IMG/VR virus record: IMGVR_UViG_3300036781_000158
Location: 1-46,892 of that record
From: a virus
DNA length: 46,892 nt
Reading direction: 5' to 3' (one strand)
Numbering within the stretch: the first letter of the stretch is position 1; every line of letters begins with the position of its first letter. This document shows positions 2,741 through 41,725 of this stretch, in pieces. The notes below the pieces were generated by a model. The model saw only the letters and a program-made list of their open reading frames with translations. It was not told where the DNA came from and made no database searches. The position numbers and the translations under genes are program-made.

Positions 2741-2744
2741 AAAA

Positions 2745-2774: not shown

Positions 2775-2798
2775 AAGTTGTCCGACAATTGCGGAATT

Positions 2799-3164: not shown

Positions 3165-3167
3165 GAT

Positions 3168-3566: not shown

Positions 3567-4139
3567 TTATCGATCCTTGTATCGCCTGAGAACAACCCTT
3601 GATCGCACGCGCTCTGGTAAACCTTTTGCATTGTGATGCACGCGCGGAATTCCAAGCGCAATCCTGATTTGATCCAAAGGATTGCAGTTGTAATATCCGG
3701 TTGTAAAAATATCCATTTCCTGTTCATCAACGTTTGGATCGTCGAACCAGTCTGAAGTTATCGGAATATGCACCGGCTCGATCGGCCATGACGTTTGCCT
3801 GATAATTCCATCCCCGACGAATTGCTGCGCTAAACCCTGGATGACAGTTCGCTTGCCGGCAAACTTCCCGCCTACGTTCTCGCGATTGCGATCGACCCAT
3901 ATCCAACAAGTTCCGTTTAGAATATGTCGCCAATTGTAAGCCGTGATATGCAGATCATCGCCGACGTAGATATACCTTCGGCCGTCCGATCCGGTAACTG
4001 CTGAAGTAATTTTCTGCAAGAAATAGTCGGTCGAATCTGGAATGCTGACAATCGCCCAATACTCAAATGGCATAAGCACGATTGCAGTCACGACAATCCA
4101 GAGACATGCATCTCTAATTCGAACTGACATTGGCGTCAC
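3567..4139 (-). CDS. Membrane-anchored hypothetical protein
   Basis: 190 aa. The reading frame starts at GTG 4139, overlapping the upstream stop as GTGA; an ATG at 4130 is an alternative. One strong transmembrane segment (ACLWIVVTAIVLMPFEYWAIV) near the N-terminus is followed by a soluble domain with RYIYVGDD, NWRHILNGTCWIWVDR and an Arg-rich C-terminus. The cysteine- and Trp-rich middle and its pairing with the next gene, which has the same topology, suggest two related envelope proteins. No family recognised. Confidence 0.65.
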   Translation of the reverse strand: MTPMSVRIRDACLWIVVTAIVLMPFEYWAIVSIPDSTDYFLQKITSAVTGSDGRRYIYVGDDLHITAYNWRHILNGTCWIWVDRNRENVGGKFAGKRTVIQGLAQQFVGDGIIRQTSWPIEPVHIPITSDWFDDPNVDEQEMDIFTTGYYNCNPLDQIRIALGIPRVHHNAKGLPERVRSRVVLRRYKDR

Positions 4140-4633
4140 TTCTCAGGTAGGGTTGTAAATTTTATATCCGGCCCGACTTGAGTAATCGGGATATCCAGAA
4201 ACTCCTGTACCCAGTTGCAGTACCAGAACGAAGTTGCTCGATAGATTGTCGGACCCGGCGGCACGTCATGTGACAGAGGCCATGCGGGAGGATTCCACTC
4301 ACTCTGTCCAAGTTTTACTTCATACGATGATCCAGCCTGCGCTGGCCGCGAGAGGACAGGCCAGATGAGTTGCGATAGACTGTCATCTCCGCTTATGATC
4401 TCAATTTGAATTGTTCCTTGGCACCTCCTGGTCAGAGGCGTTGTGATCCAGTGAACCTCTATTCCTTGTCCGGCATGCGTTGGCTTTATCGTACCGGAAA
4501 GGCGTATCCAGGGAGGCGTATTATCAAACGCCATCCACGCAATCGGGCCAATGATAAAGATTGCGAACGAGGCGGCGATTATTTGACTTACCAGCGAGAA
4601 ATATCGCTTTTGTCTCATCAAATACAAGATCAT
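4136..4633 (-). CDS. Membrane-anchored hypothetical protein
   Basis: 165 aa; start and stop overlap both neighbours (ATGA at 4630-4633). N-terminal transmembrane segment (IIAASFAIFIIGPIAWMAF), then a beta-rich exported domain with WIRLSGTIKPTHAGQ, TRRCQGTIQIEI and SFWYCNWVQEF. Two cysteines could form a disulphide in the periplasm. Together with the 190-aa gene downstream it may form an envelope complex. Function unknown. Confidence 0.65.
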   Translation of the reverse strand: MILYLMRQKRYFSLVSQIIAASFAIFIIGPIAWMAFDNTPPWIRLSGTIKPTHAGQGIEVHWITTPLTRRCQGTIQIEIISGDDSLSQLIWPVLSRPAQAGSSYEVKLGQSEWNPPAWPLSHDVPPGPTIYRATSFWYCNWVQEFLDIPITQVGPDIKFTTLPEK

Positions 4634-4845
4634 AAGAACAGCGCCTTAACGATTTTGTTAATTACGTCTCGCGCCATGTATATCCCGACAATGATTCCGA
4701 ATGCCCAATAAGAGATGCGCCACAACAGCGTGAATGTTCCCTTGTATAGTGTCCATTCATTCAGCATCTTGCGGACAAGACTATTCTCAGGCGGTTCCAG
4801 TGTACGCTCAAGCCACTTTTCCCTGCGGGGCTGATCGTCATTCAC
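4630..4845 (-). CDS. Small membrane protein, holin-like candidate
   Basis: 71 aa with a charged N-terminal half (MNDDQPRREKWLERTLEPPE) and one central-to-C-terminal transmembrane segment (TLLWRISYWAFGIIVGIYMA), ending in a short hydrophobic, lysine-containing tail. Such single-span proteins in a phage lysis region can be holins, antiholins or anchors. It overlaps the next gene by four bases and abuts the previous one. Assignment is by size and position only. Confidence 0.55.
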   Translation of the reverse strand: MNDDQPRREKWLERTLEPPENSLVRKMLNEWTLYKGTFTLLWRISYWAFGIIVGIYMARDVINKIVKALFL

Positions 4846-5895: not shown

Positions 5896-6261
5896 TTATC
5901 CCCCGGCTTTGACAGCCTGATATGCCTTTTGCGCCGCGACAACAGACGCCGCGGTAGCGGTTGCGGCCGACGCCACGTCGGTCGGCACCTGTTGGCACCA
6001 TGCCACAATCGAGGCATTCGCCGCAGCAAAAGCCGGGCCGGCTTTCTTGCTGCCGGCCGACACCTGGACGAGAAGGCCGGCGATCGTCTGGAGCGCGCCG
6101 CAGTTCTGCGCGACCACGGGCGCAGTTGCTGCAATGTCGGCATTGATGATGGCAATGCCACTCTGAAAGTTGGTCGATCCAGTCTGAAGTGAGGCGAGTT
6201 GAGCGGTAGAGCAGCCGGCTAGGGATAGGGACGAGACGGCACAAAATAGCAAGTTTCGCAT
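5896..6261 (-). CDS. Lipoprotein, possible spanin-like lysis accessory
   Basis: 121 aa. The start MRNLLFCAVSSLSLAGCST has a clear signal peptide with lipobox LAGC, predicting lipid attachment at Cys17. The mature protein is Ala-rich and helical with two cysteines (QNCGAL, AWCQQV). Outer-membrane lipoproteins in lysis cassettes can act as o-spanins, but those are usually shorter and proline-rich, so that role is only possible. Similar Ala-rich lipoproteins are, from memory, common in alphaproteobacterial phages. Confidence 0.65.
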   Translation of the reverse strand: MRNLLFCAVSSLSLAGCSTAQLASLQTGSTNFQSGIAIINADIAATAPVVAQNCGALQTIAGLLVQVSAGSKKAGPAFAAANASIVAWCQQVPTDVASAATATAASVVAAQKAYQAVKAGG

Positions 6262-6277
6262 GGTGTCCTCCTGTGTT

Positions 6278-6604
6278 TTAGTGGCTTACGACCTTGTCGC
6301 TCGGGTTGGCCGCCGCAATGGCGGGAGTTGTGATGATCTTTGACACGTCGGGATTAGCTGCAACCGCAGTAATCTGCGATGCCGGACTTGCCGACTGCGA
6401 AGCAATGTATCCAGCGACAACCGGCGTAATAAGACCGATCAGCACAACGGCATCGCTGACAAATGTCCCGAAACTGTTGATGATGGCTGTGACCTGATCA
6501 GGATTGATCTTAGTGCTAAGACCGAACATTGCGATTGCGCCGGCCGCGAAGCTGGCGACATGCCGCGTGGCGGCAAGCACCTGAGCGGAAGTGGGAAGGT
6601 TCAT
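6278..6604 (-). CDS. Putative holin, two transmembrane segments
   Basis: 108 aa from ATG 6604, overlapping the lysozyme stop as ATGA. Membrane segments are AASFAAGAIAMFGL-like (residues about 14-30) and VVLIGLITPVVAGYIAS (about 53-69), separated by a short polar loop containing NPDQVTAIINSFGTF, followed by a hydrophilic C-terminus. Direct coupling to the lysozyme-family gene upstream makes this the best holin candidate. A much longer open frame reading back through the lysozyme gene is fortuitous. Confidence 0.65.
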   Translation of the reverse strand: MNLPTSAQVLAATRHVASFAAGAIAMFGLSTKINPDQVTAIINSFGTFVSDAVVLIGLITPVVAGYIASQSASPASQITAVAANPDVSKIITTPAIAAANPSDKVVSH

Positions 6605-7179
6605 GTGGTTTCCTTGAATGTGATGGACTTGTCCATGTTCATCATGCTGATAAGGAGTGCGGCGCATCCGAGTTGATGGTCGACGGCTTTCGAATCGTAA
6701 TGTCCATCGGCAATATATTTGCCTTTGACGTACTGATTTGTAGCAGCCCAGAGGTACGGCGATGGAACGCCGCGGTTGGCATAGCCTAGGCCGTTGTATT
6801 CCTCGAGGAGAACAAGTGCGCCGCCGATTGTCCAATCTGTCCAGAGCGCGGCATACGGCGGGCAATTCGTCAACGCATCGATTGCGGCGTCCTCCCAACT
6901 CTTAAACGGCCCGCGCCCGCGTGGAATATGGATTGAGGCTTTGTTCCAAGGATCGCCTTGAGCTAGATTAGCAAGCCAGCTTTGCGATGCTTCGCGCTCG
7001 TGAATTACAGCGATAATATACCAAGGGACGCCGGTCGCTGTCTCAACAGTCTGATAGCGCTCTTTTGCGGCAACCAGTCGCTTTGCGACTTGATCGATCG
7101 TCGATTGTAGCGCGGGCACAATATGAACATTAGACCAGCGCTTGGCTTCAGCGACTTTGAGTGCGGCGATGTCGGTCAT
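6601..7179 (-). CDS. Endolysin, lysozyme-family protein (COG5526 type)
   Basis: 192 aa. After a helical start the sequence has IIAVIHEREASQSW (candidate catalytic Glu61 within HEREAS), LAQGDPWNKASIHIPRGRGP, LEEYNGLGYANRGVPSPYLW and YVKGKYIADGHY. This series of motifs is what I know from the phage and bacterial lysozyme family that hydrolyses peptidoglycan glycan strands. No signal peptide is present, so export through a holin is expected; the holin candidate follows with a four-base overlap. Confidence 0.8.
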   Translation of the reverse strand: MTDIAALKVAEAKRWSNVHIVPALQSTIDQVAKRLVAAKERYQTVETATGVPWYIIAVIHEREASQSWLANLAQGDPWNKASIHIPRGRGPFKSWEDAAIDALTNCPPYAALWTDWTIGGALVLLEEYNGLGYANRGVPSPYLWAATNQYVKGKYIADGHYDSKAVDHQLGCAALLISMMNMDKSITFKETT

Positions 7180-7376
7180 ACTGGTTCACCAATGATTTCG
7201 CAGCGGGATTCTATTTTAACTGGTCCATGCTCATGTTCCATGAATTTTCGAAAACTTTCAACAGCTTCAGGACGAGCCGCCTCACATGATTCCTTAGTGG
7301 GGAATTTATCCTTGAACGATCCATCGCCATGCTGACCAGAGGCAAGAACGAATATGACAACGATTGTGAACATCAT
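7176..7376 (-). CDS. Small secreted protein
   Basis: 66 aa with an N-terminal hydrophobic signal (MMFTIVVIFVLASG) and a polar mature domain with two cysteines (KESCEAARPEAVESF and ESRCEIIGEPV). It overlaps both neighbours by four bases, so it belongs to the operon between the collar fibre and the endolysin. Small Cys-paired exported proteins of this kind are frequent in alphaproteobacterial phages. Function unknown. Confidence 0.65.
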   Translation of the reverse strand: MMFTIVVIFVLASGQHGDGSFKDKFPTKESCEAARPEAVESFRKFMEHEHGPVKIESRCEIIGEPV

Positions 7377-8302
7377 GTTTTTATGACGAAAATGCCGCTC
7401 ATAAGCGCAGGGGGCATGAGATTATGAGGATCGTTATTTCCAAACGCATTCCCGGTAAATGATCCGGCCAATGAAAAGTCAACATCGACAAATCCAGCAA
7501 TTGTTGCAACACTTACGTTGAAACTAGTCTGACTAACACTTGCTTGCGCAGTGGCTCGTTCCGGCTTACCACTAGGCCATGACGGCGTACCCAAAGTAAC
7601 AGCTCCAGACGGCGTTATCACAGGCAATTCATTGGACAAAAGAGTATGTTCGGATTCACCTCCGGACGCGCCTAGTGTGTTTCCATCAACGCCGCCGGAC
7701 GAGTGAAGCGTAATACGTCCCGTGCCTTGATTGAGGCCGGCCGGCATACGGCCACGCAAATCGGGAAGCGTATTGCCTCCTAAGAATGTATTCAGCGCTG
7801 CATAAGTCGTCGCGTTGAATGTCGATCCGTCTAGATTGAGATATGGCAATACCGTACAGGCGGAGACCCACGCCGGCAATGCGGTTAAATACCAGAGTTC
7901 AACCAGCCCGGTGCGGCCTAGGTTTTTGAATTTCACGTCCGTTCCATCCGAATAAACATCGGACGGCTCGCCGGGAGGAAGGCCGATAACTTTACCCGAT
8001 CCGGTCGTAAGCGTCACGACAAATGCGCCAGATGTATTGTTTTCCACCGTCCAAAACTTGACGATTGCGGGCAACGTGACGGTTATATTAGTGCTTATGG
8101 TTCCTGAGAAACGGAGCACTGAGTTTTGAGCCTGAGTGATAGATAGCGTGACCGGCGATCCGCTCAAAGAAACAGAAGCGACACCTCCGAAGGCTGAATC
8201 CAGAATGTTGAAGTCGCCGTTTACGGGAGTGTCCCAAACCCCCACATCCCCGCCTCGAACGGGCAAAGATAGCTGTAAATTAATACTAGTTGGGTCAGAC
8301 AT
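7373..8302 (-). CDS. Tail fibre with phage collar domain
   Basis: 309 aa. ATG at 8302 is chosen because GGAG lies nine bases upstream; a frame extension from TTG 8317 has no ribosome binding site. N-terminal segment MSDPTSINLQLSLPVRGGDVG is typical of virion attachment regions; a beta-rich middle follows. LPDLRGRMPAGLNQG with an NLMPP near the C-terminus is the phage tail collar signature found at receptor-binding tips. It probably forms a trimeric fibre. Its 5' side faces the opposite-strand HNH gene. Confidence 0.8.
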   Translation of the reverse strand: MSDPTSINLQLSLPVRGGDVGVWDTPVNGDFNILDSAFGGVASVSLSGSPVTLSITQAQNSVLRFSGTISTNITVTLPAIVKFWTVENNTSGAFVVTLTTGSGKVIGLPPGEPSDVYSDGTDVKFKNLGRTGLVELWYLTALPAWVSACTVLPYLNLDGSTFNATTYAALNTFLGGNTLPDLRGRMPAGLNQGTGRITLHSSGGVDGNTLGASGGESEHTLLSNELPVITPSGAVTLGTPSWPSGKPERATAQASVSQTSFNVSVATIAGFVDVDFSLAGSFTGNAFGNNDPHNLMPPALMSGIFVIKT

Positions 8303-8338
8303 CGTGTATAGCTCCAAGCTTCCAAGGGGAGATTCTAC

Positions 8339-9019
8339 ATGCCCAAGGCATTGAATATTAACCTAGGTCAGAGGTTCGGACAACTAGTTGTTATAGAGCG
8401 TGCCAACAATGTTCCAAAGGCGCGCAATATTATGTGGTCTTGTAAGTGCGATTGCGGAAACATGACCACGGTTGCCGCTTCCAATCTCGGTAGAACATTA
8501 AGTTGTGGATGTTTGGCGATAGATACTGCACGAGCATTGTTGACTGGAAACACCAATAACAGAACCCACAATATGAGTCATACGGACGAGCATAACATTT
8601 GGTGCGCAATGCAAAATCGTTGCACTAATCCCAATGCTCCAAAATATAAAAACTATGGAGAGAGAGGCATAAAGATATGCGATAGATGGCAGGATTTTTC
8701 CAACTTCTACGCCGATATGAGAAACCGTCCATCAAAGAAGCACTCCATTGATCGCATTGACAATGACGGCAATTACGAACCTGGAAATTGCCGATGGGTC
8801 ACCAATATCGTTCAAAGTAGGAATAAGAGCACCAATAAAGTTGTAGAACTCAACGGGATAAAACTTTGCATTGTAGAGTGGTGCGAAGTCATGGGCATTC
8901 GACGCGGTAAAATTTACGAAATGACAAAAACAGGACGAACGAAAAACAAATCAAGATCGATAGAAGAAGTCCTGAATATTCTCTACAAGCGTTTTTTAGA
9001 TAACCAATCCGTTTCATGA
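8339..9019 (+). CDS. Free-standing HNH homing endonuclease with zinc motif
   Basis: 226 aa, on the plus strand inside the leftward operon. GGGGAG lies eight bases before the ATG. Residues 34-58 carry a zinc-binding pattern (SCKCDCG and SCGCLA). Residues 80-125 match the NIWCAMQNRCTNP and YGERGIKICDRW motifs, and residues 135-153 (HSIDRIDNDGNYEPGNCRW) form the HNH-type catalytic core. A C-terminal helical DNA-binding segment (residues about 170-200) ends the protein. It would nick or cut a DNA site in genomes lacking the gene. It lies between two intact genes and its codon use looks more AT-rich than the neighbours, which fits recent transfer. Confidence 0.9.
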   Translation: MPKALNINLGQRFGQLVVIERANNVPKARNIMWSCKCDCGNMTTVAASNLGRTLSCGCLAIDTARALLTGNTNNRTHNMSHTDEHNIWCAMQNRCTNPNAPKYKNYGERGIKICDRWQDFSNFYADMRNRPSKKHSIDRIDNDGNYEPGNCRWVTNIVQSRNKSTNKVVELNGIKLCIVEWCEVMGIRRGKIYEMTKTGRTKNKSRSIEEVLNILYKRFLDNQSVS

Positions 9020-9045: not shown

Positions 9046-10587
9046 TTATTGGGCTGGTGGCCCTGGAATGTTTTGCTGGTTCTGATCGGCTTGGCTTGTG
9101 CCGGGAGATTGCAGTGCTCGAAAGATACTTCCGGGCGGCATATTGATTCCGGCGTTATTAAGCCAATTACTAAGATTTCCGACTGAATTAGCAAACACGG
9201 AAAATCGCGCCGGGTTGCCAGGATTGGCTTGTAATGCGCGAAGATTGTCAGAAGCAGCCTGCATTGATTTTGCCAGAGGAGCACGCGAACGAACCATTTC
9301 TCCCAATGCTTCGGCTTGTCGTGCCGTGAGAGCATTCCCGAGTTTCTTGACCATCCATCCTGCAGCAGGAACAACCGCACCCATTGGTCCGGCGGCTATA
9401 ACACCAGTCCCACCGGCAATAAACGAATGCATACCTCCGCCGCCGCCTAGCATATTGCCAACCGCACGCAAGACATTCCCCGGCGCAGTACCTTTGGCAA
9501 TCTGATTCATCTGGTCAATTTCGTCGGTAGAAAAACCACGCTGCAACTTAGGATTTCTTAGTATGGTCTTAACCTGCTGCCGGATTGCGTTGTCTAGATT
9601 TTGTCCAGAATTGGCCGTAGATGCATTAAGCTCCGCAAGATCAATCTTGCCTTGTACCATCTCGGAACGTTTAGCCGCGGCATAATTTTTATTAGCCTCT
9701 TTGATAATGCCAGATATTTCAGTTGCTTGTTCCGGCGTACCTCGAATGATCGACCCGAGCGGAATATTTTCGAAGAAATTTCCCAATGCTTCATTAGCAC
9801 GAGAAGCAGCCAATCTCTCGGTTTGATCAGGTGATTTTGCGACGTTTCCCAACTTGCGCTGAACTGTTCTATAATTGTTGACAGTGAAAACTCCATCGTC
9901 AGGAATATCAGTTAGTTTACCTAGAACGCCAAAGGTTTTTGGCGCTAAAATTTCGTCTATTCCATCCTCATTGAGTTTGCTCATAAGCCCAGTCGTTGTA
10001 TTTCGAATTGACTGTGGAGACAATTCAAGACCTTGAGACTTTGCTGTGTCATATCCGGCTCCAGCGGCTTGCTTTAACTGCTTTACGCTTGGGGCGGCAA
10101 TCGGAGGTGCAGGAGATGTTGGAACGGGACCATTGGCACGAAAGCCTTTTGGAGCAAGCCCCATCATGGCCGTATCGACATCGCTTTTAGCTTGCTCGTA
10201 GGGAATGCCGGTAAGCGCAGAGTATGGATGACCGATCAGCGAGCGAGCGGCACCTGTAACGGGACTTCCGATCAATCCGGCAACCGCGCCAAGTCCTTCT
10301 CCGGTATCAATGGCCTGATTTTGCACCTCGCCCATGGTTCCCATGAACGACGGCGCAGCCGCGGCGCGAGCATAGGCCGCGTGCTTTGCTTCAGAGAACG
10401 GATTCAGCGCTTCTCCGATCTTCGTAAGTGCCGATTGCCCTGCGCTGTAAATCTCATGCGGTACATCGGTAAATGCGGATTTTAGTTGGCTTTGAGATTC
10501 ATCGGTAACAGGAATAGCGCCCCATTGTGCCGGACCTTCATCTACTGGGATTGCGCCCCATGACGCTGGATTATTATCATCGGCCAT
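9046..10587 (-). CDS. Probable internal virion / ejection protein
   Basis: 513 aa. The N-terminus repeats a WGAIPV motif twice (PASWGAIPVDE and PAQWGAIPV). Long helical stretches follow (residues about 160-370), then a glycine-rich hydrophobic segment (FIAGGTGVIAAGPMGAVVPA) that could cross a membrane, and a Gln/Pro-rich end. Large helical virion proteins with one hydrophobic patch encoded beside the tail genes are typical of short-tailed phages that eject internal proteins with DNA. No direct family match, so this is inference from composition and position. Confidence 0.5.
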   Translation of the reverse strand: MADDNNPASWGAIPVDEGPAQWGAIPVTDESQSQLKSAFTDVPHEIYSAGQSALTKIGEALNPFSEAKHAAYARAAAAPSFMGTMGEVQNQAIDTGEGLGAVAGLIGSPVTGAARSLIGHPYSALTGIPYEQAKSDVDTAMMGLAPKGFRANGPVPTSPAPPIAAPSVKQLKQAAGAGYDTAKSQGLELSPQSIRNTTTGLMSKLNEDGIDEILAPKTFGVLGKLTDIPDDGVFTVNNYRTVQRKLGNVAKSPDQTERLAASRANEALGNFFENIPLGSIIRGTPEQATEISGIIKEANKNYAAAKRSEMVQGKIDLAELNASTANSGQNLDNAIRQQVKTILRNPKLQRGFSTDEIDQMNQIAKGTAPGNVLRAVGNMLGGGGGMHSFIAGGTGVIAAGPMGAVVPAAGWMVKKLGNALTARQAEALGEMVRSRAPLAKSMQAASDNLRALQANPGNPARFSVFANSVGNLSNWLNNAGINMPPGSIFRALQSPGTSQADQNQQNIPGPPAQ

Positions 10588-10590
10588 AAT

Positions 10591-13569
10591 TTAGGGCTTT
10601 CGATATGGTTTGCCATCACTGGAAGTGAACGTACTGCCAGACGGCAATGCATCATATTCCGATTTACTATGGACTATAGTAGCGCCGCCGCCACTTGGAG
10701 CATATGAATCTCCAGACTGCTTTAGCCGGTCCATGATTTCACGAGTTTTAGGAGCGATAAATTGTTGTGGATCGTGGCTGGTTCTCATACCTTCGTTGTA
10801 TTGATTGCTGAGAGCATTAAGGCGACCCTCCACGAGCTTTTCAACTTCCTTGCCTTTCGACAAAGAAACGGACGAGGGAGTATTAAGTCCGAATATCTTT
10901 CCCCACGCTTCGCGATCAGCCAAAGCGCTTCCGCTACCGGCGAACACTTTTGCACCTTCGTCGGCAACAGCCTTTGAGGCCACTTCAAGTTGCCCTAACT
11001 TGTCCTGCGCCTGCTTTGACGTGAGACCTTGCGAAGTTAGAAAATTGTACACTTCATTTAGACTTTTATACTGTCCTAGGTGTAATTCCTGTGACAATCT
11101 CAGATATTCATCCATGTGCTGCGCCCATGTATTCATTGCAGCAATGTTCTGTCCGCCACCTCCCTGCGTCCCAACTGCGAAGAAATTTGCAGTCTTTTGA
11201 CGCCTTCCATAGGCACTTTCATCAATGTTTGAATCGTATTCGTGAAGTTTATCCATAAGGTACATATTATGAGGATTGTTACGTCCTTGTGGAAGAAACT
11301 TTTCTCGTCCATCCGACATTGCCTTAACTCGATTAGCATCAGCAGTCGTCATGCCTTCGAGAACTTCAGGATGAACCCAACTCGGAGGAGGATTTGATAC
11401 AAATATGGCATTGGCCGGCAAGCCGGTATCTTCCGCAGGCGCGGCTGCCGCCGTCTTATCCGCAGATGGCGGCGCAGATGTATCAGTAGCGTTCGGTCCT
11501 GGGATGACGTAGTTTGGCTGTTGTGGCTTAGGTGGCTGATCGCCTACCGTCCCATCTGAATTGATGACAGTCGTTTCCCCGGTCAATGGATTAATCTTGA
11601 TTAGCTTCTGTCCATACATACCCTGTACGACATGGAACGCCGGCCGATTTGCCTGTTGTTCCCTTACGTTCTCTTGCTGCTCTTTCAACCCATAATTTTT
11701 TGTAAATTGATCTGCCTGTTGGGCAAGCCGCTTGGCCTCGATGTTGACTTGACGATCTTTCTGAGCCTGCGTCCGAGACGTATCCAGGCTCTTGACGCCC
11801 TGAAGCGCTCCTTGTCCGATATTGGTCAAAGCGAACGGCGACGTGCCTCCCATAATCCCGAGGCCGGCCGCGATCAGGGCACGGCGGGTATCGGTCAGCG
11901 GCGCGCCGAATAGCGTCTGTTCTTGCGGTGAACTAGTACCGTCAGGGGAAGGGGGAGCAAATCCAGACCCACTCCCACCGACATAGGCCATGGGGAAGGG
12001 AGACGCAGACTGCCCGCCGGTAATTTCAGGCGGGAGCGGATAGTCACTCTGAGGTGCAGGGGGAGGCTCGCTAGGGGCCTGCGGCGGGAAGCCTGCATCA
12101 GACTGCAAGGCAGGATTAGTCCAATCCACGGGCTTGCCTAGACCAGCGGCGTCGGCATCTATGACCGGGAGGGGGCTGGACACGCTCGCCGGCCGATTGA
12201 ACATATCAGAAGCGTCTTGGACCTCCTGCCAGCGGTTATCGAAACTTGGCGCGGTAAGTTGGGAAAAGTCGTCCGCGACAGTACCGCCGGGAGCGTAGCC
12301 CTTGAGGCCGCTTCGGATCGAGCGAACAGCGGAAACGAAACCGCCGTCCTCGAACGACTTGCCTTTTAGGCCGCTCAATTGCCTGATCAGGTCCGAATAT
12401 GGGCTGGCCTGTTGCTGCGCCGGGGGAAGGAACGATGCGGTAGGCTTATGTTGCTGTACATTCCCGATCTGCACTCGGGGAATAAATCCCTGAGTGTCCA
12501 TGAAGTTAGTCGCACCGCCGTCCGCATAGCCAATCCGGCCGCCGTCCTTCGAATAGGAGGGATAATAGCCATATCCGGGCTGGTAGGCTGGATATGACCC
12601 CGCCGCATAGGGGTTCTGCGGGAAGTAATTGCCCGCTACAGGTGTCGAGCTGTAACCAGTGCTTCCAGTGGAACCTCCGAACAGCGATCCTAGGCCAGCC
12701 GCAGCGCCGGGATAACCGGACAAGAGGCCCGCGCCGGCAATCCCAAGCCCTGCAATCTGACTAAGCAAATTAGGGCCGGGGCTCGTCGTGGTCGCCGTGC
12801 CCTGCGTCGTGCCGCCCAATGCGCCGGCTGCGGGGATGTCGATCCCAGCGAGGAACTGCGCTTGCTGGTAGGGATATGCTAGTTGCTGCTGGTATTGCTG
12901 GTAGGCTGCATTCAGCCCAGCTTGGCTGGTTTGCTGCTCTAGGCCGCCCGCCCCGATTTGAGCTTGCGCGCCCTGTAGCGCTGCGTTTTGCGCTTCCCCG
13001 CCCAAGTTGCCATAGGTGTATGCAGCCTGACTTTGGGCCGCCCGATCGGCCTGCGCTGCCGATAGGGCTTGATTGTAATTCTGGCTTTGCAGCCCGGCCA
13101 AAGTCGCGCCGGAAGCAAGCCCCTGTTGCCGCGCCAACTCGGATTGCGCTACGCCGACGCGGTCGCCGCCGAGCGCGCCCTGTAGGGCCGCATTGCCGAG
13201 AACTTGCTGCTGTTGCTGCCCGTTGGTTTCATTGATGTTCGCCATCGTCGAGTTGATGACGTTTTGCTGAAACGGATTGAGATAAGAGGAAATTTGATTA
13301 GCTGTAATCGGGGCCGCGCCAGAAGTCGCATAGTTCGCCGCTTGATTGATGTATGGCTGTGCCGTTCCAACGGCCGCGTTCGTGTTGGCAATCCCGCTTT
13401 GCTGAGTTGACGAAAGAGGGGAGACCAACTGCCCGGTATAGGCTTGATACGGAGTTGACGCAGCGTTTGACGCCAAGCCGAGAATGCTTTGCAGAGATTG
13501 TTGCGCAGCGGAACTCGGCGCGTAGCTGCTGCTGCTTTGCTGCGTCGTGGTATTGGTCTTGCCGCCCAT
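10591..13569 (-). CDS. Large structural or ejection protein with DGG motifs
   Basis: 992 aa. The first 280 residues are Gln/Ala/Ser-rich and helical; residues about 280-350 are Gly/Tyr/Pro-rich. The motifs KDGGRIGYADGG, FEDGGFVSAVRSI and YAPGGTV recur, which I associate with structural proteins of alphaproteobacterial short-tailed phages. The C-terminal 400 residues are helical with a TPSSVSLSKGKEVEKLVEGR segment. Probably a virion internal protein or DNA-ejection factor that also interacts with the 513-aa product encoded just downstream. No enzyme motif seen. Confidence 0.55.
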   Translation of the reverse strand: MGGKTNTTTQQSSSSYAPSSAAQQSLQSILGLASNAASTPYQAYTGQLVSPLSSTQQSGIANTNAAVGTAQPYINQAANYATSGAAPITANQISSYLNPFQQNVINSTMANINETNGQQQQQVLGNAALQGALGGDRVGVAQSELARQQGLASGATLAGLQSQNYNQALSAAQADRAAQSQAAYTYGNLGGEAQNAALQGAQAQIGAGGLEQQTSQAGLNAAYQQYQQQLAYPYQQAQFLAGIDIPAAGALGGTTQGTATTTSPGPNLLSQIAGLGIAGAGLLSGYPGAAAGLGSLFGGSTGSTGYSSTPVAGNYFPQNPYAAGSYPAYQPGYGYYPSYSKDGGRIGYADGGATNFMDTQGFIPRVQIGNVQQHKPTASFLPPAQQQASPYSDLIRQLSGLKGKSFEDGGFVSAVRSIRSGLKGYAPGGTVADDFSQLTAPSFDNRWQEVQDASDMFNRPASVSSPLPVIDADAAGLGKPVDWTNPALQSDAGFPPQAPSEPPPAPQSDYPLPPEITGGQSASPFPMAYVGGSGSGFAPPSPDGTSSPQEQTLFGAPLTDTRRALIAAGLGIMGGTSPFALTNIGQGALQGVKSLDTSRTQAQKDRQVNIEAKRLAQQADQFTKNYGLKEQQENVREQQANRPAFHVVQGMYGQKLIKINPLTGETTVINSDGTVGDQPPKPQQPNYVIPGPNATDTSAPPSADKTAAAAPAEDTGLPANAIFVSNPPPSWVHPEVLEGMTTADANRVKAMSDGREKFLPQGRNNPHNMYLMDKLHEYDSNIDESAYGRRQKTANFFAVGTQGGGGQNIAAMNTWAQHMDEYLRLSQELHLGQYKSLNEVYNFLTSQGLTSKQAQDKLGQLEVASKAVADEGAKVFAGSGSALADREAWGKIFGLNTPSSVSLSKGKEVEKLVEGRLNALSNQYNEGMRTSHDPQQFIAPKTREIMDRLKQSGDSYAPSGGGATIVHSKSEYDALPSGSTFTSSDGKPYRKP

Positions 13570-15947: not shown

Positions 15948-16313
15948 TCAGTTCACCAGATAATAGAGAAACGTTTCGGTGCCCGCCGCGGCGGCGCCGC
16001 TGGCTGTCGAGACGACAAATCCGGACCCCGGCGTAAGCGTAGAGACGTAGGGAGATTTTGTACTGCCGATCAGAGTTCCGGCGCTTGCGTTGGTCGGGAT
16101 TATAACCACGCCTCTCGTGGCAGAGGTGACGTTAGTCTCCGATACCGATACTGTTGCCGACGCTCCGAATGTGAATGTCCCAATAACGCGCGGGAACAAG
16201 CTGGCGACCAACTGATAGAGGTTGCCTAGCTGGACGCTGATATTCTTCGTCGCGGTGATTAAATCGGTAAGGCTTCCGCCTCCCATTTGCGTAAATGAAT
16301 TAGGATCGCTCAT
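15948..16313 (-). CDS. Small beta-rich structural protein
   Basis: 121 aa with an N-terminal helix (SLTDLITATKNISVQLGNLY) followed by a beta-rich Ser/Thr/Gly domain (FTFGASATVSVSETNVTSA). This layout, a helical anchor plus a beta sandwich, is common for head or tail decoration and for minor virion proteins. It overlaps the upstream 677-aa gene by four bases and ends two bases before the ART-domain gene. Role inferred from composition and neighbours only. Confidence 0.6.
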   Translation of the reverse strand: MSDPNSFTQMGGGSLTDLITATKNISVQLGNLYQLVASLFPRVIGTFTFGASATVSVSETNVTSATRGVVIIPTNASAGTLIGSTKSPYVSTLTPGSGFVVSTASGAAAAGTETFLYYLVN

Positions 16314-18343
16314 CGCCGGCCATCAACTCCCCAACGATATCGAGGCAGCCCCATGCGCCAGAAACTACCGACATCCGTGCTTTCAATCCGCCATTTCAGC
16401 ATTCGTCCGCGAAGCCTTGTCGAAACATACTGCGATGCCTGCATGACCGTATAAGGACCAGCAATCATGGGCGTGGCAGTCGGATAATCGACCATGGTAA
16501 GCATCATCTGGACATTCGCGCCCTGCGATCCGTTGAACAATCCCCATTTCATGTCAGGAATGAACTGATCGACAAAGGCAAAATTTTCCGCGTCTCCAAT
16601 GATTGCAAAGCCGCTCTCGAAGAATGAATCCATTGCTTGCCCGTCAGCGTCGAGGCTGGTTTCATGCTGAAAGATCAACTTTTGCGCCGATGCGCCAACC
16701 GGAGGGCCCAGAATGCCCTGATCGATCCATGCCGTGCGGGACAGCGTCCCATAGTCCCATGGCGTATTTGGTTCTGAGAGGTTTACCTTGACGTATTTAT
16801 CGCACTCGCCCGTGCCACCGGAAAGAGAAGGATAATAGAACGCCACCTCATTGAAACCGCTGTTCGATGCCGCGACGCATTTGTTTTGATGTGCCGTATC
16901 CAAGTCCTGGAACACGACATCCCATACCGAGCACGGAAGCACGGTCGCGCCGCTCGAAGTGAGCATGTAGAAGTTTTCCTGGCTCATCCAGAACACGGAA
17001 CCGCGCAAAGTTGTCATGGCGTGCGGCCCGACTAGACCGCAGCCGAAACCAATCTGGTTGAACGAGAAAATCAGCGGGTAGCCGATGTACTGCATCGCCC
17101 ATATGCCGACATCTGTCCAAATTAATCCCTGTTGTGCGGCTTGCAATGCTCCAATGATGGCTGATCCAGTAGGGATATGAAAGTCGCCGGCTTGCGTTTG
17201 CGAGGTAACTGTCCAATTGGTGAAGTCGAGAATGTTAGACCAGCGTACCAACAGAGGGTCTTGTTGCGTACTGCCGATCGGCGTTGAGCCATAGGCGACA
17301 AGTATCTGCTCTGGCATTGCGACGAAAATGCCACTGTTGAATGCCGGGGCGGTTGCGACCAAGGCGAGGTTGCCAAATCCAGAGTTAGGCTCCCATGAAT
17401 AGATGCCGCCATTCTTGGGACAAGCGACAACAATCTCGCCCCAGTTATCGATTGTCCAATCCGTTGTCGTGATTGGTGTTCCGGTATCTGGAGACGGAAT
17501 AACGCCCGTTCCATAACCGCCGTCGCCGTATCCTCCGAGGCCATATCCAGATCCAACGGGAGGGGGTCCAAGTGAGATGTAGTAAACGAACTCCACATCA
17601 CCGCCATTCATATCGAACGTAGCCGTTGACGTGGCTTGATTGCTTGCCGTGATCGTGAAGGTGTTCACGCTGCCGACGGCGTTGACGATATAGCCGCCCT
17701 GAATTGTTACTCCGCCGCCCGTGGTCGGAATGACAAAGTCGAACCTATCTCCTACCAACTGCCCATGATCGTTGAGAGTGACGGTAACAGTTGCCGAATC
17801 CAAGGTTGTGTCGAACTGTGGAACCGCACCGCCTGTAGTTACGGGAGCAGTTGCCGGAGTGGCCGTGTCGATCTGATACTGATTTGCCCCGGTTATGTTG
17901 ATGATCGGATAAAGGCCATTGACGATAATTCCGCCTACCGACACCGGCGTATTGAGAAATACCGCGTCGAATGTGGTCAAGTTGCTTGTGTTGGAATCGT
18001 CAATGGTGACGATTGATGATCCGATAGTCGTGGTAAAGCTCGGAGCAACATCGGAGATTGAAGTCTGCGGAGTAAGGTCGATCAGAGACCCGGCCGTGAT
18101 AACTCCGAATTGAGTAGAGGTGCCTACCGCGAGATGCTTGATGCTGTTCAAATCCTCCCATGCATGCAGGCACCTCGGAATGTCCGATAGAACATTGAGA
18201 TAGTACCGCGTCCATCCACCCAGCTTTTCGACTAGGCCGCCACGATGGCGGATAAGATTACTGGCCGATATGCCGGTCGTGTTTAGTGTCGGCGTCCATT
18301 CCGAGTTGACGCCTGGAATAAGTCTAAGGTCGGCAAACGGCAT
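16310..18343 (-). CDS. Probable tail hub / packaged-DNA stabilisation protein (gp10-like)
   Basis: 677 aa. The start MPFADLRLIPGVNSEWTPTL and the following GLVEKLGGW and SIKHLAVGTSTQFGV segments are what I recall of podovirus hub proteins functionally like P22 gp10. The middle is beta-rich; the C-terminal half has a beta-propeller-like WSNILDFTNWT and WMSQENFYMLTSSG. Position immediately downstream of an adaptor-like gene fits a portal-tail connector assembly. Family assignment is by memory of such sequences and could be checked with profile searches. Confidence 0.6.
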   Translation of the reverse strand: MPFADLRLIPGVNSEWTPTLNTTGISASNLIRHRGGLVEKLGGWTRYYLNVLSDIPRCLHAWEDLNSIKHLAVGTSTQFGVITAGSLIDLTPQTSISDVAPSFTTTIGSSIVTIDDSNTSNLTTFDAVFLNTPVSVGGIIVNGLYPIINITGANQYQIDTATPATAPVTTGGAVPQFDTTLDSATVTVTLNDHGQLVGDRFDFVIPTTGGGVTIQGGYIVNAVGSVNTFTITASNQATSTATFDMNGGDVEFVYYISLGPPPVGSGYGLGGYGDGGYGTGVIPSPDTGTPITTTDWTIDNWGEIVVACPKNGGIYSWEPNSGFGNLALVATAPAFNSGIFVAMPEQILVAYGSTPIGSTQQDPLLVRWSNILDFTNWTVTSQTQAGDFHIPTGSAIIGALQAAQQGLIWTDVGIWAMQYIGYPLIFSFNQIGFGCGLVGPHAMTTLRGSVFWMSQENFYMLTSSGATVLPCSVWDVVFQDLDTAHQNKCVAASNSGFNEVAFYYPSLSGGTGECDKYVKVNLSEPNTPWDYGTLSRTAWIDQGILGPPVGASAQKLIFQHETSLDADGQAMDSFFESGFAIIGDAENFAFVDQFIPDMKWGLFNGSQGANVQMMLTMVDYPTATPMIAGPYTVMQASQYVSTRLRGRMLKWRIESTDVGSFWRMGLPRYRWGVDGRR

Positions 18344-36398: not shown

Positions 36399-38618
36399 TT
36401 ACTGCCCCAAAACCGTGCCAGCCGCGGTCAGCGTATTACCGACCAACGGCTGCGCATCGGGATGAATGGCAATCTCAGCCGCAAGTCGCAGTACATCGTT
36501 CTGTTGCTGCAATGCGGCCAGCCGCTCCTTCGAGGCTCGATCGGCCGCGCTATCCTGCAACTTGGCCATTTCGATTTGGTTCTTTAGCCGCATGTCCATC
36601 AGGTTCATTTGCGCTTGCTGGTCGCCTTGCTTGGCCTTCAGTGTCAATTCCATCAACTTCGGATCAGGCGGTTGCTGTTGCGGTTGTGCCTGACTTTCAT
36701 CCTTCAGCATACCCTCTGGATCAATTCCAATCACGCGCAAACAGAACTTCTCAACAGCCATCAAATCATAAGCATCCGGATGCTGTTGCGCCATAGCGCG
36801 CAAGGCTTGCGCGATCATAATGCGCTGGAAATGGGTAGGATTGTTCGGATCGGCAACCGGGATGAGGTCGTTATCTTCCAACGCCTTCAAAAACTGATCC
36901 TTTTTCCAAGGCATCGCCGGCTTTTTATTATGCCGCCAGAATGCCTCTGGATCTTCCTTGAATCGCTCTTTCAGCAACTTGAACTCCTCGCCCTGCGAGA
37001 TGAACAGCCGCTTGTGAACGGTGTTTAGAACCTTCGTCGCCTGCTCTATCAATGCAATCGTCGTCCCTACCGGCGCGTCCTGCCGGCCTTCCCCGACATT
37101 CGTTTCCGCCGTTCCCCCGACCCGCTGCGCGACCTGTTCGAGGTGATCAATGAACGCCGCAAAACCGCCACTCAAATCGCTGTATGGCATCGGCATGACG
37201 GCGTCTTGAATCTTCATCCCATTCGTTTCGATCGGCTGAAACGATCCAGGTCCGACCCGGAAGTTGTTCGTGTTCTGCCGACCGGCTTGCTTCGCAATCA
37301 ACCCGCCGGGAAAATTCTTCGCCATCCCGAGGTCGATTGCTTCCCGCCACGCCGCGGTCAGCGTCACAGCGAGATTGCCGAGAATATGCACCAGCCCAAC
37401 TGCATAGAAACCCAAGGCCCGCACGAAGGGAAAGTCCACGAAGAACGTCTTGGGCATGCACAGAAAGTCGCCCTCGATCCAATTCCGCCTTACCGCCAAC
37501 ACGGCCCGCGACTGCCTCTCGATCGTCACCACATAAGGAACATGCAACCCGGTTTCCTTCCCCTTGTCCTTGTGCTCATAACCCTCGATATTCAGTTCGC
37601 AATAGCACTCGTAAATCTCATAATCCGAATCCTGCGGCCTCGTCGGCTGGATCGTCACGCCATGCACTTGCGCCTTGGCCTGATCCACCGCATTCGAATC
37701 GACATACGTCGGTTGTGCCAGCGGTACGTCCCGATAAGCCCCGACAATCTGCATTCTCTTGAGTGTAGACGACCGCATCTTGATGCGATGCGTAATGCGG
37801 CCGGCGTTCTTCAGGTCGGTCGCGTTGTTCGAAACGATCAAATCTTCCGCGTTGACACTCTCGCTTACCGGCCTTTGCCGGAGCGGACAGTTGTAGACTT
37901 TCTTGAACCCCTGCCCGGATAATCCAACACTAAACAACATCCGGTCCGTATCTGGATAATACTCCGACGCGGTGACTGTGAGATAGTGATTGAAGTCCGT
38001 CTCCAGCGCATCGGCAAGATCATCCTGCACAACAGTCGGAGAAAGCGGTTGAGGTGGCGGCGCGGGAGGGGGTTGTGGCGGTTGTGGTTGAGGTGCTTGA
38101 ATTGGAGGACCGCCATTGTGACCAATCCCGATTGGTTTGAGGGTACTATCGTTCCTGATCTTGACCGGGCCGGCCGCGGGCAGCATTTCCCCATATGCAT
38201 TCGCCTGAAAGCGCAACGTCGCTTCGGCCAACAACGGATGCCGCGTGCGCGACATGCCTTCCAACGGCGCACTCGAATTGCCTACGTCTGACGCCGGCTC
38301 CTCGACCTTGAACCCGAGCAACTTGATCGCCTGCGCCCGCGTCTGCTTCCACTCATCCCTTGATTGATCGTCGGCCTGTATCCCGTCAATCAAATCATTG
38401 CCGATCCTGGCAAGCTCGCCGTCGTCGATTTCAAGTGCAAGATTGGCGTAAAAGTCAGGATCGGTTTCAGTGGTAGCAGCGATGGCCGGACTGAGATTGA
38501 CCGACGCGCTCCCGTCGGGATGTTCGGTCGTTACGGCGTCCGGCAACTTGGTATCAACTTCGGCCGGTGGAAGGGATTGCGGCGGAGGAAACGGATATCG
38601 GATGACGTTAGGGGGCAT
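36399..38618 (-). CDS. Portal protein
   Basis: 739 aa, a size typical of P22-like and related podovirus portals. After a Pro-rich start, motifs WKQTRAQAIKLLGFKVEEPA, EGMSRTRHPLLAEATLRFQA and EMLPAAGPVKIRND are followed by a Pro/Gln-rich insertion (PQPQPPQPPPAPPPQP), then YDVP-type strands, and a C-terminal Gln/Lys-rich coiled coil (KQGDQQAQMNLMDMRLKNQI). It forms the 12-fold channel at one vertex through which DNA is packaged and ejected. No strong ribosome binding site is visible. Confidence 0.8.
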   Translation of the reverse strand: MPPNVIRYPFPPPQSLPPAEVDTKLPDAVTTEHPDGSASVNLSPAIAATTETDPDFYANLALEIDDGELARIGNDLIDGIQADDQSRDEWKQTRAQAIKLLGFKVEEPASDVGNSSAPLEGMSRTRHPLLAEATLRFQANAYGEMLPAAGPVKIRNDSTLKPIGIGHNGGPPIQAPQPQPPQPPPAPPPQPLSPTVVQDDLADALETDFNHYLTVTASEYYPDTDRMLFSVGLSGQGFKKVYNCPLRQRPVSESVNAEDLIVSNNATDLKNAGRITHRIKMRSSTLKRMQIVGAYRDVPLAQPTYVDSNAVDQAKAQVHGVTIQPTRPQDSDYEIYECYCELNIEGYEHKDKGKETGLHVPYVVTIERQSRAVLAVRRNWIEGDFLCMPKTFFVDFPFVRALGFYAVGLVHILGNLAVTLTAAWREAIDLGMAKNFPGGLIAKQAGRQNTNNFRVGPGSFQPIETNGMKIQDAVMPMPYSDLSGGFAAFIDHLEQVAQRVGGTAETNVGEGRQDAPVGTTIALIEQATKVLNTVHKRLFISQGEEFKLLKERFKEDPEAFWRHNKKPAMPWKKDQFLKALEDNDLIPVADPNNPTHFQRIMIAQALRAMAQQHPDAYDLMAVEKFCLRVIGIDPEGMLKDESQAQPQQQPPDPKLMELTLKAKQGDQQAQMNLMDMRLKNQIEMAKLQDSAADRASKERLAALQQQNDVLRLAAEIAIHPDAQPLVGNTLTAAGTVLGQ

Positions 38619-39097: not shown

Positions 39098-41725
39098 TCA
39101 ATCCGAAGTCCCATACAACGGTGCAAGCTTCGGCTTGAACAGCATCTCATCGTAAACCATCGCATCATGTTCGTGACTATGCGAGATCAAACCATTGTCT
39201 CTCAGATACTTGATCGCCTGCGTCGTCGAATCCGTCAAATCCCTAAACCGCCCCTTGGGAAACTCCCGACATTCCTCGATCACAAGGTCAGCCCATTCCT
39301 TGTCCGGCGCGTAAACCAACCCCTGCGCAAACGCAGGCTCTACCGCATGCGCCCGTGAAACCTTATCGCCCTCCGGTGTCACCAGCCGTATTCCCCAACC
39401 CTCATCGCCATGCAGCCGCCTTAGCTCCTGCGCCGCAGACATGCCGGACGCTTTCGATTCAACCAACAGCAAATCCACCTTGAACTTCTTGCACGAATAC
39501 GCAAGCCACTCGACCAATCCCCACTTCGAACTCGTCCGCTCGAAATAATCATGATCTTTCTCGTCAGGCTTGCGATCGATCCGCACGCCATGCAGCTCGA
39601 GAAACTTCCGCCACGCCCAAACCAACATGGCCTTGGGCCGGCCGTTGGTATCGCGGAACACACCCCAGATCGTGCAAGCCGATGGGTCGTTCTCCTCTTT
39701 CTCAGTGTACGCCGTGTCAGCCGAAGCCAGCAAAAACTCAAATGCAGGAAACTCCGGACTGGGCCAATCCTGCCAATACGTCTCCTTGATAATCCCGCCT
39801 TCCGCCAGCGTCGGCAATTGCTGCAACCGTCCCGAGGCCATGTACGGCCCGAGGCCGATCTTCAGAGCATGAACTTCCTTCGGCCCGAAACGCTCGGGCC
39901 ACATCAACTCATTCTCTTCGGTCCTGGGATCTTCCCAGACTTGTTCTGGTTCGCCCTCCTCATCCCACTTCAAAACTGTAACACAATGCCGCCGCGTGTC
40001 GTGCTCCATCGGGACCATGTAATGAACCCAGTCCTCATAGTCCGACGACTTCGTTATCTGCCCCGAGATATCCTCACCATGCAACCGCTGCATATTGACC
40101 ACGATCGCGCTTTGCTTCGGATCGTTCAAGCGCGTGGTCTTTATTTCATTCCACCAGTTCGTCGCCGTTAGCCGATCAGCTTCGGATTCAACTTCTTCCG
40201 TATTGTGTGGATCATCGCAATTGGCGCAAACTATACTTGACACGTTGTCGCCACAACACATATTACCATTGTCACGTACAGTTATGCAGTACGTCTCAGG
40301 AGGTAAATCATGCACCAACTCAATACCGACAACACGCAAGAAACTTGGCGAAATGTCGTCGGGTTCGAAAGGCTTTACGAAGTTTCCAGCTTCGGCCGCA
40401 TCAAGAGCATATCGAGGCCGCGAAACGATAAACTGTTTGTTCTCAAAGAACGAATTCTCTCTATCCTCATCAACAAAGGATATCCCCGCGTCACCATGAG
40501 ACGGAACGGAAAAACTCATTACCTGTTTTGCCATCAACTCGTGGCCCAAGCCTTTATAGGACAACCGCCACAAGGATGCGAAGTGCGCCACAAAGACGGA
40601 AACCGAACTAATCCTCGATTGGATAATCTCGAATACGGAACGCGATCGCAAAATATCGCCGATTGCAAAAAACACGGCAACTTTCGCAACGGAGCCTCTC
40701 ACCTTACAGAAGAAATTGTCTTGCAAATCGCGGCAAGACCGAACGATACCGCGGCAGTACTCGCTAAAGAATTCAACATTTCCCGAGGAACCATATCCGG
40801 CATTAGAAACGGCCGATGGTGGAAACACCTCAACATTCCCAAGCGAAGCTACATCAGACGCGGAGACGAACATCCCGCTAGACGCGGCAAGCAAATCGTC
40901 CCCAACTCGGAGTAATCCAGCCTCTACATACCCTCGCGATGTTAAAACACGATGATCAGCCGTACACTCTAGTCGCGTACCATCGCCAATCAATATCTTC
41001 AGCAAAGGACGTGGCGGGTTGGTATGCCAACCAATCACGTCCTTTAACTCAAATGCATCCAATGACCGATTATAGGACCACACTCGCGTCTCGCGACGTT
41101 GCTTTACAATATCGCCAATCTCAACAGGACCAGATTCCGTAACGATCGTTTGATGATATGGAAAGCAATTGATGATATCGCCACCAATCCCGAGCAGCGA
41201 ACCCCCAACCGACGACGCAATCCGCTGGCCGCCGGTAACCAAGTCAAAGTGCTCTTTTGTGTTCTGATCGTCGGCGATCCTGACTTCTTTCCCCCACCGT
41301 TCCTGATACCACGGGCTGAGAATAACCCGCCGCGTGGCATTAGAGTTTTCGAACGAAAGCTTCTGCCCGTACGATCCACACAGAAACCTGACCTGGTTTC
41401 CCGACCAGAACGACTTTTCTCGCCGCGTCCACGTCCACGCCGGCCAGCAAATCGAAGTAACAGTCGTCTTGCCCGTACGCGGCGGCATGTTGATGAGCAA
41501 ACGCTTGATCTGCCCTTCCGTTACCGCTTGCAAGTGCTCGCATAACCCATCGATTACCCATGACGGCTGATATCGCGCCGGATTGATGTAAGGCCAAGCG
41601 CCCTCGACAAAATCAATTAAGTTTGTCTCTAGCCTTTCCGTCTCCCGTAGAAACCGCATCCTTTGCGTCGCCAAGGCCAAGGACTTGAGTCTCGGATCGG
41701 ATGTAGTCTGCAAGCTCATCGGCAT
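39098..41725 (-). CDS. terL: Terminase large subunit containing an intein
   Basis: 875 aa precursor, predicted 559 aa after splicing. Walker A NMPPRTGKTT lies at residues 79-88. The intein (187-502) is inserted in Walker B, between GIGGDIIN and CDDPHN. The C-terminal nuclease domain has ASADTAY (Asp670), LLVESKASG (Glu756) and RDLTDSTTQ (Asp829, Asp832), giving the expected metal-binding acidic residues. The protein translocates DNA into the prohead and cuts the concatemer. The N-terminus is uncertain: ATG 41725 overlaps terS by 113 bases with no clear ribosome binding site, and starts further in are possible because conservation begins near residue 31. Splicing must occur for a working ATPase. 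Confidence 0.85.
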   Translation of the reverse strand: MPMSLQTTSDPRLKSLALATQRMRFLRETERLETNLIDFVEGAWPYINPARYQPSWVIDGLCEHLQAVTEGQIKRLLINMPPRTGKTTVTSICWPAWTWTRREKSFWSGNQVRFLCGSYGQKLSFENSNATRRVILSPWYQERWGKEVRIADDQNTKEHFDLVTGGQRIASSVGGSLLGIGGDIINCFPYHQTIVTESGPVEIGDIVKQRRETRVWSYNRSLDAFELKDVIGWHTNPPRPLLKILIGDGTRLECTADHRVLTSRGYVEAGLLRVGDDLLAASSGMFVSASDVASLGNVEVFPPSAVSNAGYGSSGNVEFFSEYCRGIVRSCRDLQDNFFCKVRGSVAKVAVFFAIGDILRSRSVFEIIQSRISSVSVFVAHFASLWRLSYKGLGHELMAKQVMSFSVPSHGDAGISFVDEDRENSFFENKQFIVSRPRYALDAAEAGNFVKPFEPDDISPSFLRVVGIELVHDLPPETYCITVRDNGNMCCGDNVSSIVCANCDDPHNTEEVESEADRLTATNWWNEIKTTRLNDPKQSAIVVNMQRLHGEDISGQITKSSDYEDWVHYMVPMEHDTRRHCVTVLKWDEEGEPEQVWEDPRTEENELMWPERFGPKEVHALKIGLGPYMASGRLQQLPTLAEGGIIKETYWQDWPSPEFPAFEFLLASADTAYTEKEENDPSACTIWGVFRDTNGRPKAMLVWAWRKFLELHGVRIDRKPDEKDHDYFERTSSKWGLVEWLAYSCKKFKVDLLLVESKASGMSAAQELRRLHGDEGWGIRLVTPEGDKVSRAHAVEPAFAQGLVYAPDKEWADLVIEECREFPKGRFRDLTDSTTQAIKYLRDNGLISHSHEHDAMVYDEMLFKPKLAPLYGTSD
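40237..40303 (+). promoter_or_regulatory. Candidate promoter and ribosome binding site of the antisense HNH gene
   Basis: On the plus strand, a perfect -35 TTGACA (40237-40242) is followed after 18 bases by TATTAC (40261-40266; 4 of 6 to consensus). A perfect Shine-Dalgarno AGGAGG (40298-40303) lies six bases before ATG 40310. All of this is inside the minus-strand codons for the intein C-terminal splicing blocks; the AGGAGG is antisense to the Pro-Pro codons of DLPPETYC. This indicates that the endonuclease is transcribed and translated independently of terL. Confidence 0.65.
40310..40915 (+). CDS. HNH homing endonuclease nested antisense inside the TerL intein
   Basis: 201 aa. An N-terminal NUMOD4-like DNA-binding motif (WRNVVGFERLYEVSSFGRI, residues 13-31) is followed by an HNH core: LFCHQLVAQAF (His75) and EVRHKDGNRTNPRLDNLEYG (His94, Asn98, Asn106). 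A C-terminal helix-turn-helix (DTAAVLAKEFNISRG, residues 146-160) follows. It would cut intein-less terL alleles and cause homing. Codon boundaries coincide with those of the intein frame on the other strand, so every TTA, CTA or TCA codon would stop TerL. All 14 Leu codons (CTC, CTT, CTG, TTG) and 11 Ser codons (TCC, TCT, TCG, AGC) avoid them, whereas these triplets occur freely out of frame. Confidence 0.9.
   Translation: MHQLNTDNTQETWRNVVGFERLYEVSSFGRIKSISRPRNDKLFVLKERILSILINKGYPRVTMRRNGKTHYLFCHQLVAQAFIGQPPQGCEVRHKDGNRTNPRLDNLEYGTRSQNIADCKKHGNFRNGASHLTEEIVLQIAARPNDTAAVLAKEFNISRGTISGIRNGRWWKHLNIPKRSYIRRGDEHPARRGKQIVPNSE

Follow-up and report, generated by a model that had tools for sequence, protein, structure and literature searches.

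A phage terminase intein that probably carries its own antisense homing-endonuclease gene in shared codon phase

We analysed the IMG/VR record IMGVR_UViG_3300036781_000158 of an uncultured virus over its 46,892 nucleotides (nt), here called the window. The terminase gene terL lies on the minus strand and is interrupted by an intein, and a gene for a NUMOD4-HNH protein lies on the plus strand within the intein-coding part (Table 1). Host gene and intein form a single contiguous frame of 875 codons and are not divided into two open reading frames (ORFs); a split intein was rejected on the ground of this single ORF.

The position of the insert was derived from TerL proteins that do not carry it. 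Uninvaded TerL reads GGDVIL/VDDPHN where the window reads GGDIIN-intein-CDDPHN, and therefore the insert sits in the Walker B motif; at this site the uninvaded TerL of locus L004 has the sequence GGDVILVDDPHN, and L002 is also without the insert. The Cys1 codon of the intein occupies positions 41165-41167 and the Asn316 codon positions 40220-40222, and the C-terminus reads VCAN/C with Asn316 followed by Cys+1. The intein model TIGR01445 (intein_Nterm) matched the insert at 8e-7, exceeding its curated cutoff, PF14890 covered both intein ends (2.3e-5) but under its gathering score, and solved mini-inteins in the PDB matched the N-terminal part (best 2.6e-5). An AlphaFold model, for which an alignment of 35 inteins was used, had a mean predicted local distance difference test score (pLDDT) of 55 and was confident only in the splicing blocks, where values reached 96 (about 87-96 at intein residues 51-90 and 82-89 at residues 271-290), while confidence over residues 110-268 was very low. 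With this model, the top PDB matches found by Foldseek were all intein splicing domains, those of the Mtu RecA inteins being the best (4.2e-4, with modest TM scores). Domain scans reported no endonuclease domain in the TerL frame. Rfam at gathering thresholds gave no intron or other family in the window, and a tRNA search also returned none.

The plus-strand ORF matched NUMOD4 (8e-13, 48.8 bits versus a gathering cutoff of 23.4) and HNH_3 (2.8e-13, 49.7 bits versus a gathering cutoff of 24.8), and over its residues 13-126 it matched the sequence of the I-HmuI structure (PDB 1U3E) at 1.3e-8. About 2,080 phage records match this protein (tblastn, E up to 1e-5), and a single-protein scan of viral contigs found no close relatives of the window gene. 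The gene occupies the interval between the N-terminal block A/B region and block F of the intein: its ATG pairs with the His codon of VHDL, the block F motif, and its stop lies just past block B. An initial annotation made from the letters had described this ORF as an intact 201-amino-acid NUMOD4-HNH-HTH gene; the first two domains stand well above their cutoffs, whereas the HTH match (0.013) is weak and below cutoff.

The HNH gene and terL are read in the same codon phase, with codon boundaries common to both. Any TTA, CTA or TCA codon in the HNH gene would read as a stop in terL, and these three triplets are absent from all of its 14 Leu and 11 Ser codons, while they occur 16 + 6 = 22 times in the two other frames of the gene. 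The sequence AGGAGG, a Shine-Dalgarno match six bases before the ATG, complements codons of the intein. The initial annotation had noted the interrupted Walker B motif with intein blocks A, B, F and G, the coinciding codon boundaries, the avoided Leu and Ser codons and the AGGAGG sequence, all of which were borne out.

Table 1. Coordinates in the window of the terL gene, its intein and the antisense gene with its expression signals
Feature	Coordinates	Strand	Evidence
terL ORF, 875 amino acids, intein-interrupted	39098..41725	-	Terminase_6C 8.3e-5; psiM2_ORF9 terminase 3e-12
N-extein of TerL, C-terminal end GGDIIN, Walker B region	41168..41725	-	by-eye alignment with uninvaded L004 and L002
Intein, 316 amino acids, Cys1 to Asn316 (TerL residues 187-502)	40220..41167	-	TIGR01445, PF14890, PDB mini-inteins, Foldseek
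Intein blocks A and B, residues 1-84, Cys1, T69xxH72	40916..41167	-	intein alignment, pLDDT
Intein blocks F and G, residues 286-316, VHDL...VCAN then C+1	40220..40312	-	alignment, pLDDT
C-extein of TerL, starting C(+1)DDPHN	39098..40219	-	comparison with uninvaded TerL
Antisense putative homing-endonuclease gene, 201 amino acids, NUMOD4-HNH, weak C-terminal HTH	40310..40915	+	domain matches, I-HmuI match
Shine-Dalgarno AGGAGG, 6 nt 5' of ATG; complements intein Pro-Pro codons following VHDL	40298..40303	+	sequence; comparative support from MuF block F codon analysis
Candidate sigma-70 promoter TTGACA-16-CATATT, 10/12, -10 end 45 nt before ATG	40237..40264	+	motif score

The same arrangement was found in a second terL gene; a search for other antisense-HNH inteins had been suggested in the initial annotation. 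In Escherichia phage BUCT618 (OM735461.1, L005), the TerL ORF (2459-4828) contains an intein, and an antisense NUMOD4-HNH ORF of 223 amino acids (3176-3847), absent from the annotation of the record, is read in the same codon phase as terL. By reading of the alignments, this intein is inserted 3 residues upstream of the window site; its penultimate residue is Ser, and the antisense gene starts on block F as in the window. A TerL that is 98% identical (L006) has an empty site, reading GFGG/AIIIDDPHK versus GFGG-intein-CIIIDDPHK, and intein and antisense gene are missing from it together at the exact site. The BUCT618 insert is therefore precise and, as far as these two sequences tell, recent or mobile. 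In E. coli genomes nothing resembling the BUCT618 terL or its intein was found. When 80 NUMOD4-HNH viral loci were scanned, no additional antisense-intein case came up, and because of this the NUMOD4-HNH branch looks rare.

Klebsiella phage RCIP0054 was reached by searching with the window intein; in this phage, an intein in a MuF-like head gene contains an antisense nuclease gene. The nuclease of this MuF class combines an HTH with a DUF559/MTES_1575-like domain (best domain matches from family members) and is unrelated to NUMOD4-HNH; for the nuclease of L030 no PDB sequence match was obtained. It was detected by tblastn in 113 phage records and is, among the matches listed, mostly annotated as head protein or hypothetical. 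In the phage and IMG/VR loci taken together, 85 nuclease copies are antisense to a long host ORF that encloses them (57 after removal of near-duplicates); without exception they share its codon phase, and none is nested in a different alternative frame. Among the 53 host ORFs scanned, Intein_splicing was present in 52 and Phage_Mu_F in 46; Phage_portal was also matched in 5/53 and an ADP-ribosyltransferase family in 2/53, the intein thus occurring in fused multi-domain MuF proteins too. Bacterial genome contigs with a nuclease match, from several phyla, carried it nested in 7/7 cases. No forbidden Leu or Ser codon (TTA, CTA, TCA) was present in the 10 loci examined. Two copies are not nested: that of L143 is damaged, and that of L041 is intact and free-standing with 12 antisense stops, which makes it a natural negative control for stop avoidance. 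In the records inspected the host gene alone is listed and the antisense gene never; the record of Escherichia phage Snoke (L044) also annotates the intein of the capsid morphogenesis gene, and not the antisense nuclease ORF within it. In MuF-type genes of L203, a Scytonema contig, and of L150, the intein with the antisense gene appears to be preceded by a second C-terminal splicing region resembling that of an intein.

Expression signals of the antisense gene were analysed statistically in the MuF class. Block F was recognisable in 48 MuF inteins, and in 40 of these the antisense ATG lies opposite a block F residue. The block F His is coded by CAT in 40/42 (background 422:447), and the block F Leu by CTC in 31/42 against a background of 24% (p=1e-11, a value that, like our other p-values, treats loci as independent, ignores shared ancestry and is too optimistic given their relatedness). 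The CTC codon puts GAG(G) about 8-9 nt before the antisense ATG, and where block F has no Leu, Ser codons give a GGAGG-like sequence instead. Over the 111 nt preceding the ATG, the top sigma-70 score averaged 8.60 versus 7.19 +/- 0.15 for codon-shuffled sequences, while the score on the opposite strand was at its null; matches of at least 9/12 were found in 46% of MuF loci versus 11% in the null, with the -10 end 26 nt upstream of the ATG in 10 loci and 45 nt upstream in 5, and L133, L140, L173 and L188 have perfect consensus promoters. The window has in common with the MuF class the 45-nt promoter spacing (that of 5 MuF relatives), the Shine-Dalgarno sequence and the start on block F.

We then considered selection on the overlap. 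The MuF nuclease gene spans a median of 92% of the intein (46 loci), from its block F start to a stop usually within the first intein residues. Nested MuF pairs (n=36, about 50% nuclease identity) showed a third-position divergence of 0.515, compared with 0.681 in control pairs of similar identity from a different nuclease family, NUMOD4-HNH (n=206). Under a null that assumes saturated synonymous sites, host-frame identity was 0.39 versus 0.28 expected (1.38x) in the MuF pairs and 0.22 versus 0.24 (0.93x) in the control pairs. In the MuF class the ratio to the null was 1.67x over blocks A/B and 1.16x in the middle of the intein. The overlap of the nuclease gene with blocks A and B, together with the raised identity there, demonstrates at the level of sequence comparison that functional residues are double-coded over these splicing blocks. 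A host-frame motif, EDFHGDG, was rejected as a conserved intein feature; it lies opposite the conserved AVE motif of the nuclease and can be read as its shadow. For the window, the sole comparison available is that with BUCT618, in which the overlapped intein stretch is 16.5% identical against a null of 19.2 +/- 2.4%. The overlapped stretch of the window, of very low confidence in the AlphaFold model, looks like filler that is constrained only to stay open. The real double coding claimed for the window in the initial annotation is thus shown only for the MuF inteins, over their blocks A and B, and is not recovered in the window stretch itself, whereas the claimed new organisation, with the endonuclease as a separate antisense gene inside an intein, is supported as a recurrent class by BUCT618 and the 57 MuF loci.

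Taking these observations together, we consider it likely that the insert is a mobile intein with an autonomous antisense NUMOD4-HNH homing-endonuclease gene sharing its codon phase, and that the MuF class is built in the same way with an unrelated nuclease. On the minus strand, the contiguous intein would splice itself from the TerL precursor. On the plus strand, the HNH protein would be made from its own start, Shine-Dalgarno sequence and candidate promoter within the part coding for the intein C-terminus; the endonuclease would cleave the Walker B site of a terL without the intein, and repair of the break would copy the whole intein into the cut gene. It is the common codon phase that lets both genes occupy one stretch of DNA: the terL frame stays open provided that the HNH gene avoids TTA, CTA and TCA, and synonymous Leu and Ser codons permit this avoidance. 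Only this antisense phase would give every host stop a synonymous substitute, and any nuclease could therefore be accommodated in it. In a broader sense, there is probably a widespread and distinct class of phage inteins with an autonomous antisense mobility gene locked in phase, of at least two origins with unrelated nucleases, in which the MuF splicing blocks double as C-terminal codons of the enzyme (A/B), as Shine-Dalgarno sequence and start (F) and as promoter region (F-G); the window would belong to its NUMOD4-HNH branch.

Several points weigh against this interpretation and have to be set beside its rivals. The sigma-70 candidate of the window is not significant alone (1 found versus 1.4 expected in 1.9 kb), and in BUCT618 the promoter match is weak and there is no clear Shine-Dalgarno sequence. 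Antisense-intein cases with NUMOD4-HNH number two, the window and BUCT618, the nearest empty-site TerL relative of the window is only about 48-55% identical, and the divergence test took its control from another nuclease family. Judged from codon usage, the antisense frame of the window HNH gene would be open with a probability of about 0.013-0.015, the value of about 0.015 being obtained with the phage's own usage; this is modest evidence alone, and 5 of the 80 NUMOD4-HNH viral loci are antisense-open across the matched stretch, none of these five with recognisable intein flanks. An ordinary HNH gene or a spurious ORF lying by chance opposite an open terL frame could draw on these figures. 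An open frame by itself is no more than mildly improbable; the argument depends on its location in TerL and on recurrence. Two domain matches over curated cutoffs, a host ORF that is a TerL with an intein, and the return of the arrangement in BUCT618 and the non-redundant set of 57 MuF loci, with the phase unchanged throughout, led us to reject chance, which is very improbable.

The intein could also be a decayed relic that disrupts TerL in a phage that is defective or uses another terminase. The penultimate residue of the window intein, in the terminal VCAN, is Ala and not the usual His, PF14890 stays below its gathering score and the record is an uncultured viral contig. A penultimate His in block G is usual and not universal, however, the efficient Npu DnaE intein ending in SN, and the retention of Cys1, T69xxH72, Asn316 and Cys+1 in a frame open over 875 codons makes decay decidedly unlikely. 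A free-standing HNH gene might instead have landed as a passenger in the linker of a mini-intein, homing alone or elsewhere without serving the intein. Free-standing NUMOD4-HNH genes are indeed common in phages, as the 2080 matching records attest, and the intein stretch opposite the window gene looks unconstrained; but the gene sits between blocks B and F, where a canonical intein has its endonuclease, its start falls on block F like that of the MuF genes, and in the BUCT618 comparison gene and intein are absent together at a precise site, and we regard a passenger as unlikely. A group I intron with an antisense endonuclease gene, as known in some nuclear ribosomal DNA (rDNA) introns (PMC9548176), was rejected and has almost no probability, as no Rfam intron match was obtained in the window and the insert is in frame and open, with ends that fit intein models and folds.

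The surroundings of the locus and related loci gave further observations. Minus-strand ORFs of the window at 36399-38618, 16310-18343, 10591-13569 and 9046-10587 correspond to portal, virion structural, DNA-ejection and major-head-like proteins, and this structural module, including TerL, is opposite in strand to the HNH gene. In L003, the TerL ORF (5986-8883) has an intein at the window's site, and within it a 353-amino-acid HNH ORF (6611-7672) runs on the TerL strand in a different frame; this is the sense-overlap equivalent of the antisense arrangement. A sense-strand phase 1 ORF was seen in contiguous inteins of one terminase and three helicases (L018 Gordonia phage Clown, L019 Corynebacterium phi673, L024 Pseudomonas MR14 and L028 Vibrio 1.088.O); the frame-shifted ORF of L018 matches HNH and that of L019 matches DUF559. 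It may be common for inteins to contain an endonuclease out of frame. The intein of L017 has no nested gene, and in L022 (Lactobacillus CL2), L025 (Campylobacter CC_R7) and L026 (Salmonella AKM_NP4) truncated host genes ending in intein N-terminal parts are followed by separate ORFs, in a split-intein-like layout.

A separately controlled antisense endonuclease would change how intein mobility can be regulated, for example by collision with transcription of the structural genes. Long antisense gene overlaps are a disputed subject in bacteria and phages, and such loci would offer natural cases in which they can be tested; the MuF class provides dozens of independent-looking sequences for measuring constraint on both strands. 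Automated annotation misses such antisense genes. Inteins and homing endonucleases are known, and the antisense-gene organisation appears not to be: no description of an antisense endonuclease inside an intein was found in the open-access full-text literature searched.

Until now, to our knowledge, the endonuclease of an intein has been regarded as an in-frame domain within a single polypeptide. Like a canonical endonuclease intein of the PI-SceI type, the window intein has Hint-type blocks A, B, F and G, an endonuclease between B and F and a conserved host-gene site; unlike it, the endonuclease is a separate opposite-strand gene outside the intein polypeptide. In fractured phage genes, split inteins have a free-standing endonuclease gene between their halves, a layout that L022, L025 and L026 appear to share. 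They resemble the window in having the splicing element and the endonuclease as separate gene products of one locus, and differ from it in that the window intein and its host gene are one contiguous frame. I-HmuI, to which the window protein is alike in its NUMOD4-HNH sequence, belongs to a group I intron and not to an intein. In the ShiLan domain and the Pacc40 insertion, a hidden out-of-frame HNH lies in a phage methylase insert without detectable intein or intron, its frames being reported without a recognisable ribosome-binding site and without use of the word antisense (PMC11855218). Common to these and to the window is a hidden HNH gene overlapping an open phage host frame, with mobile-insert behaviour there, whereas the window has a recognisable intein and an HNH gene that is antisense and has a ribosome-binding site. 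Nuclear rDNA group I introns contain antisense homing-endonuclease genes that are separately expressed (PMC9548176). As in those introns, the mobility gene of the window is antisense to the splicing element and would be expressed separately; the strand that it overlaps is non-coding intron RNA there, and a continuous protein-coding frame in the window.

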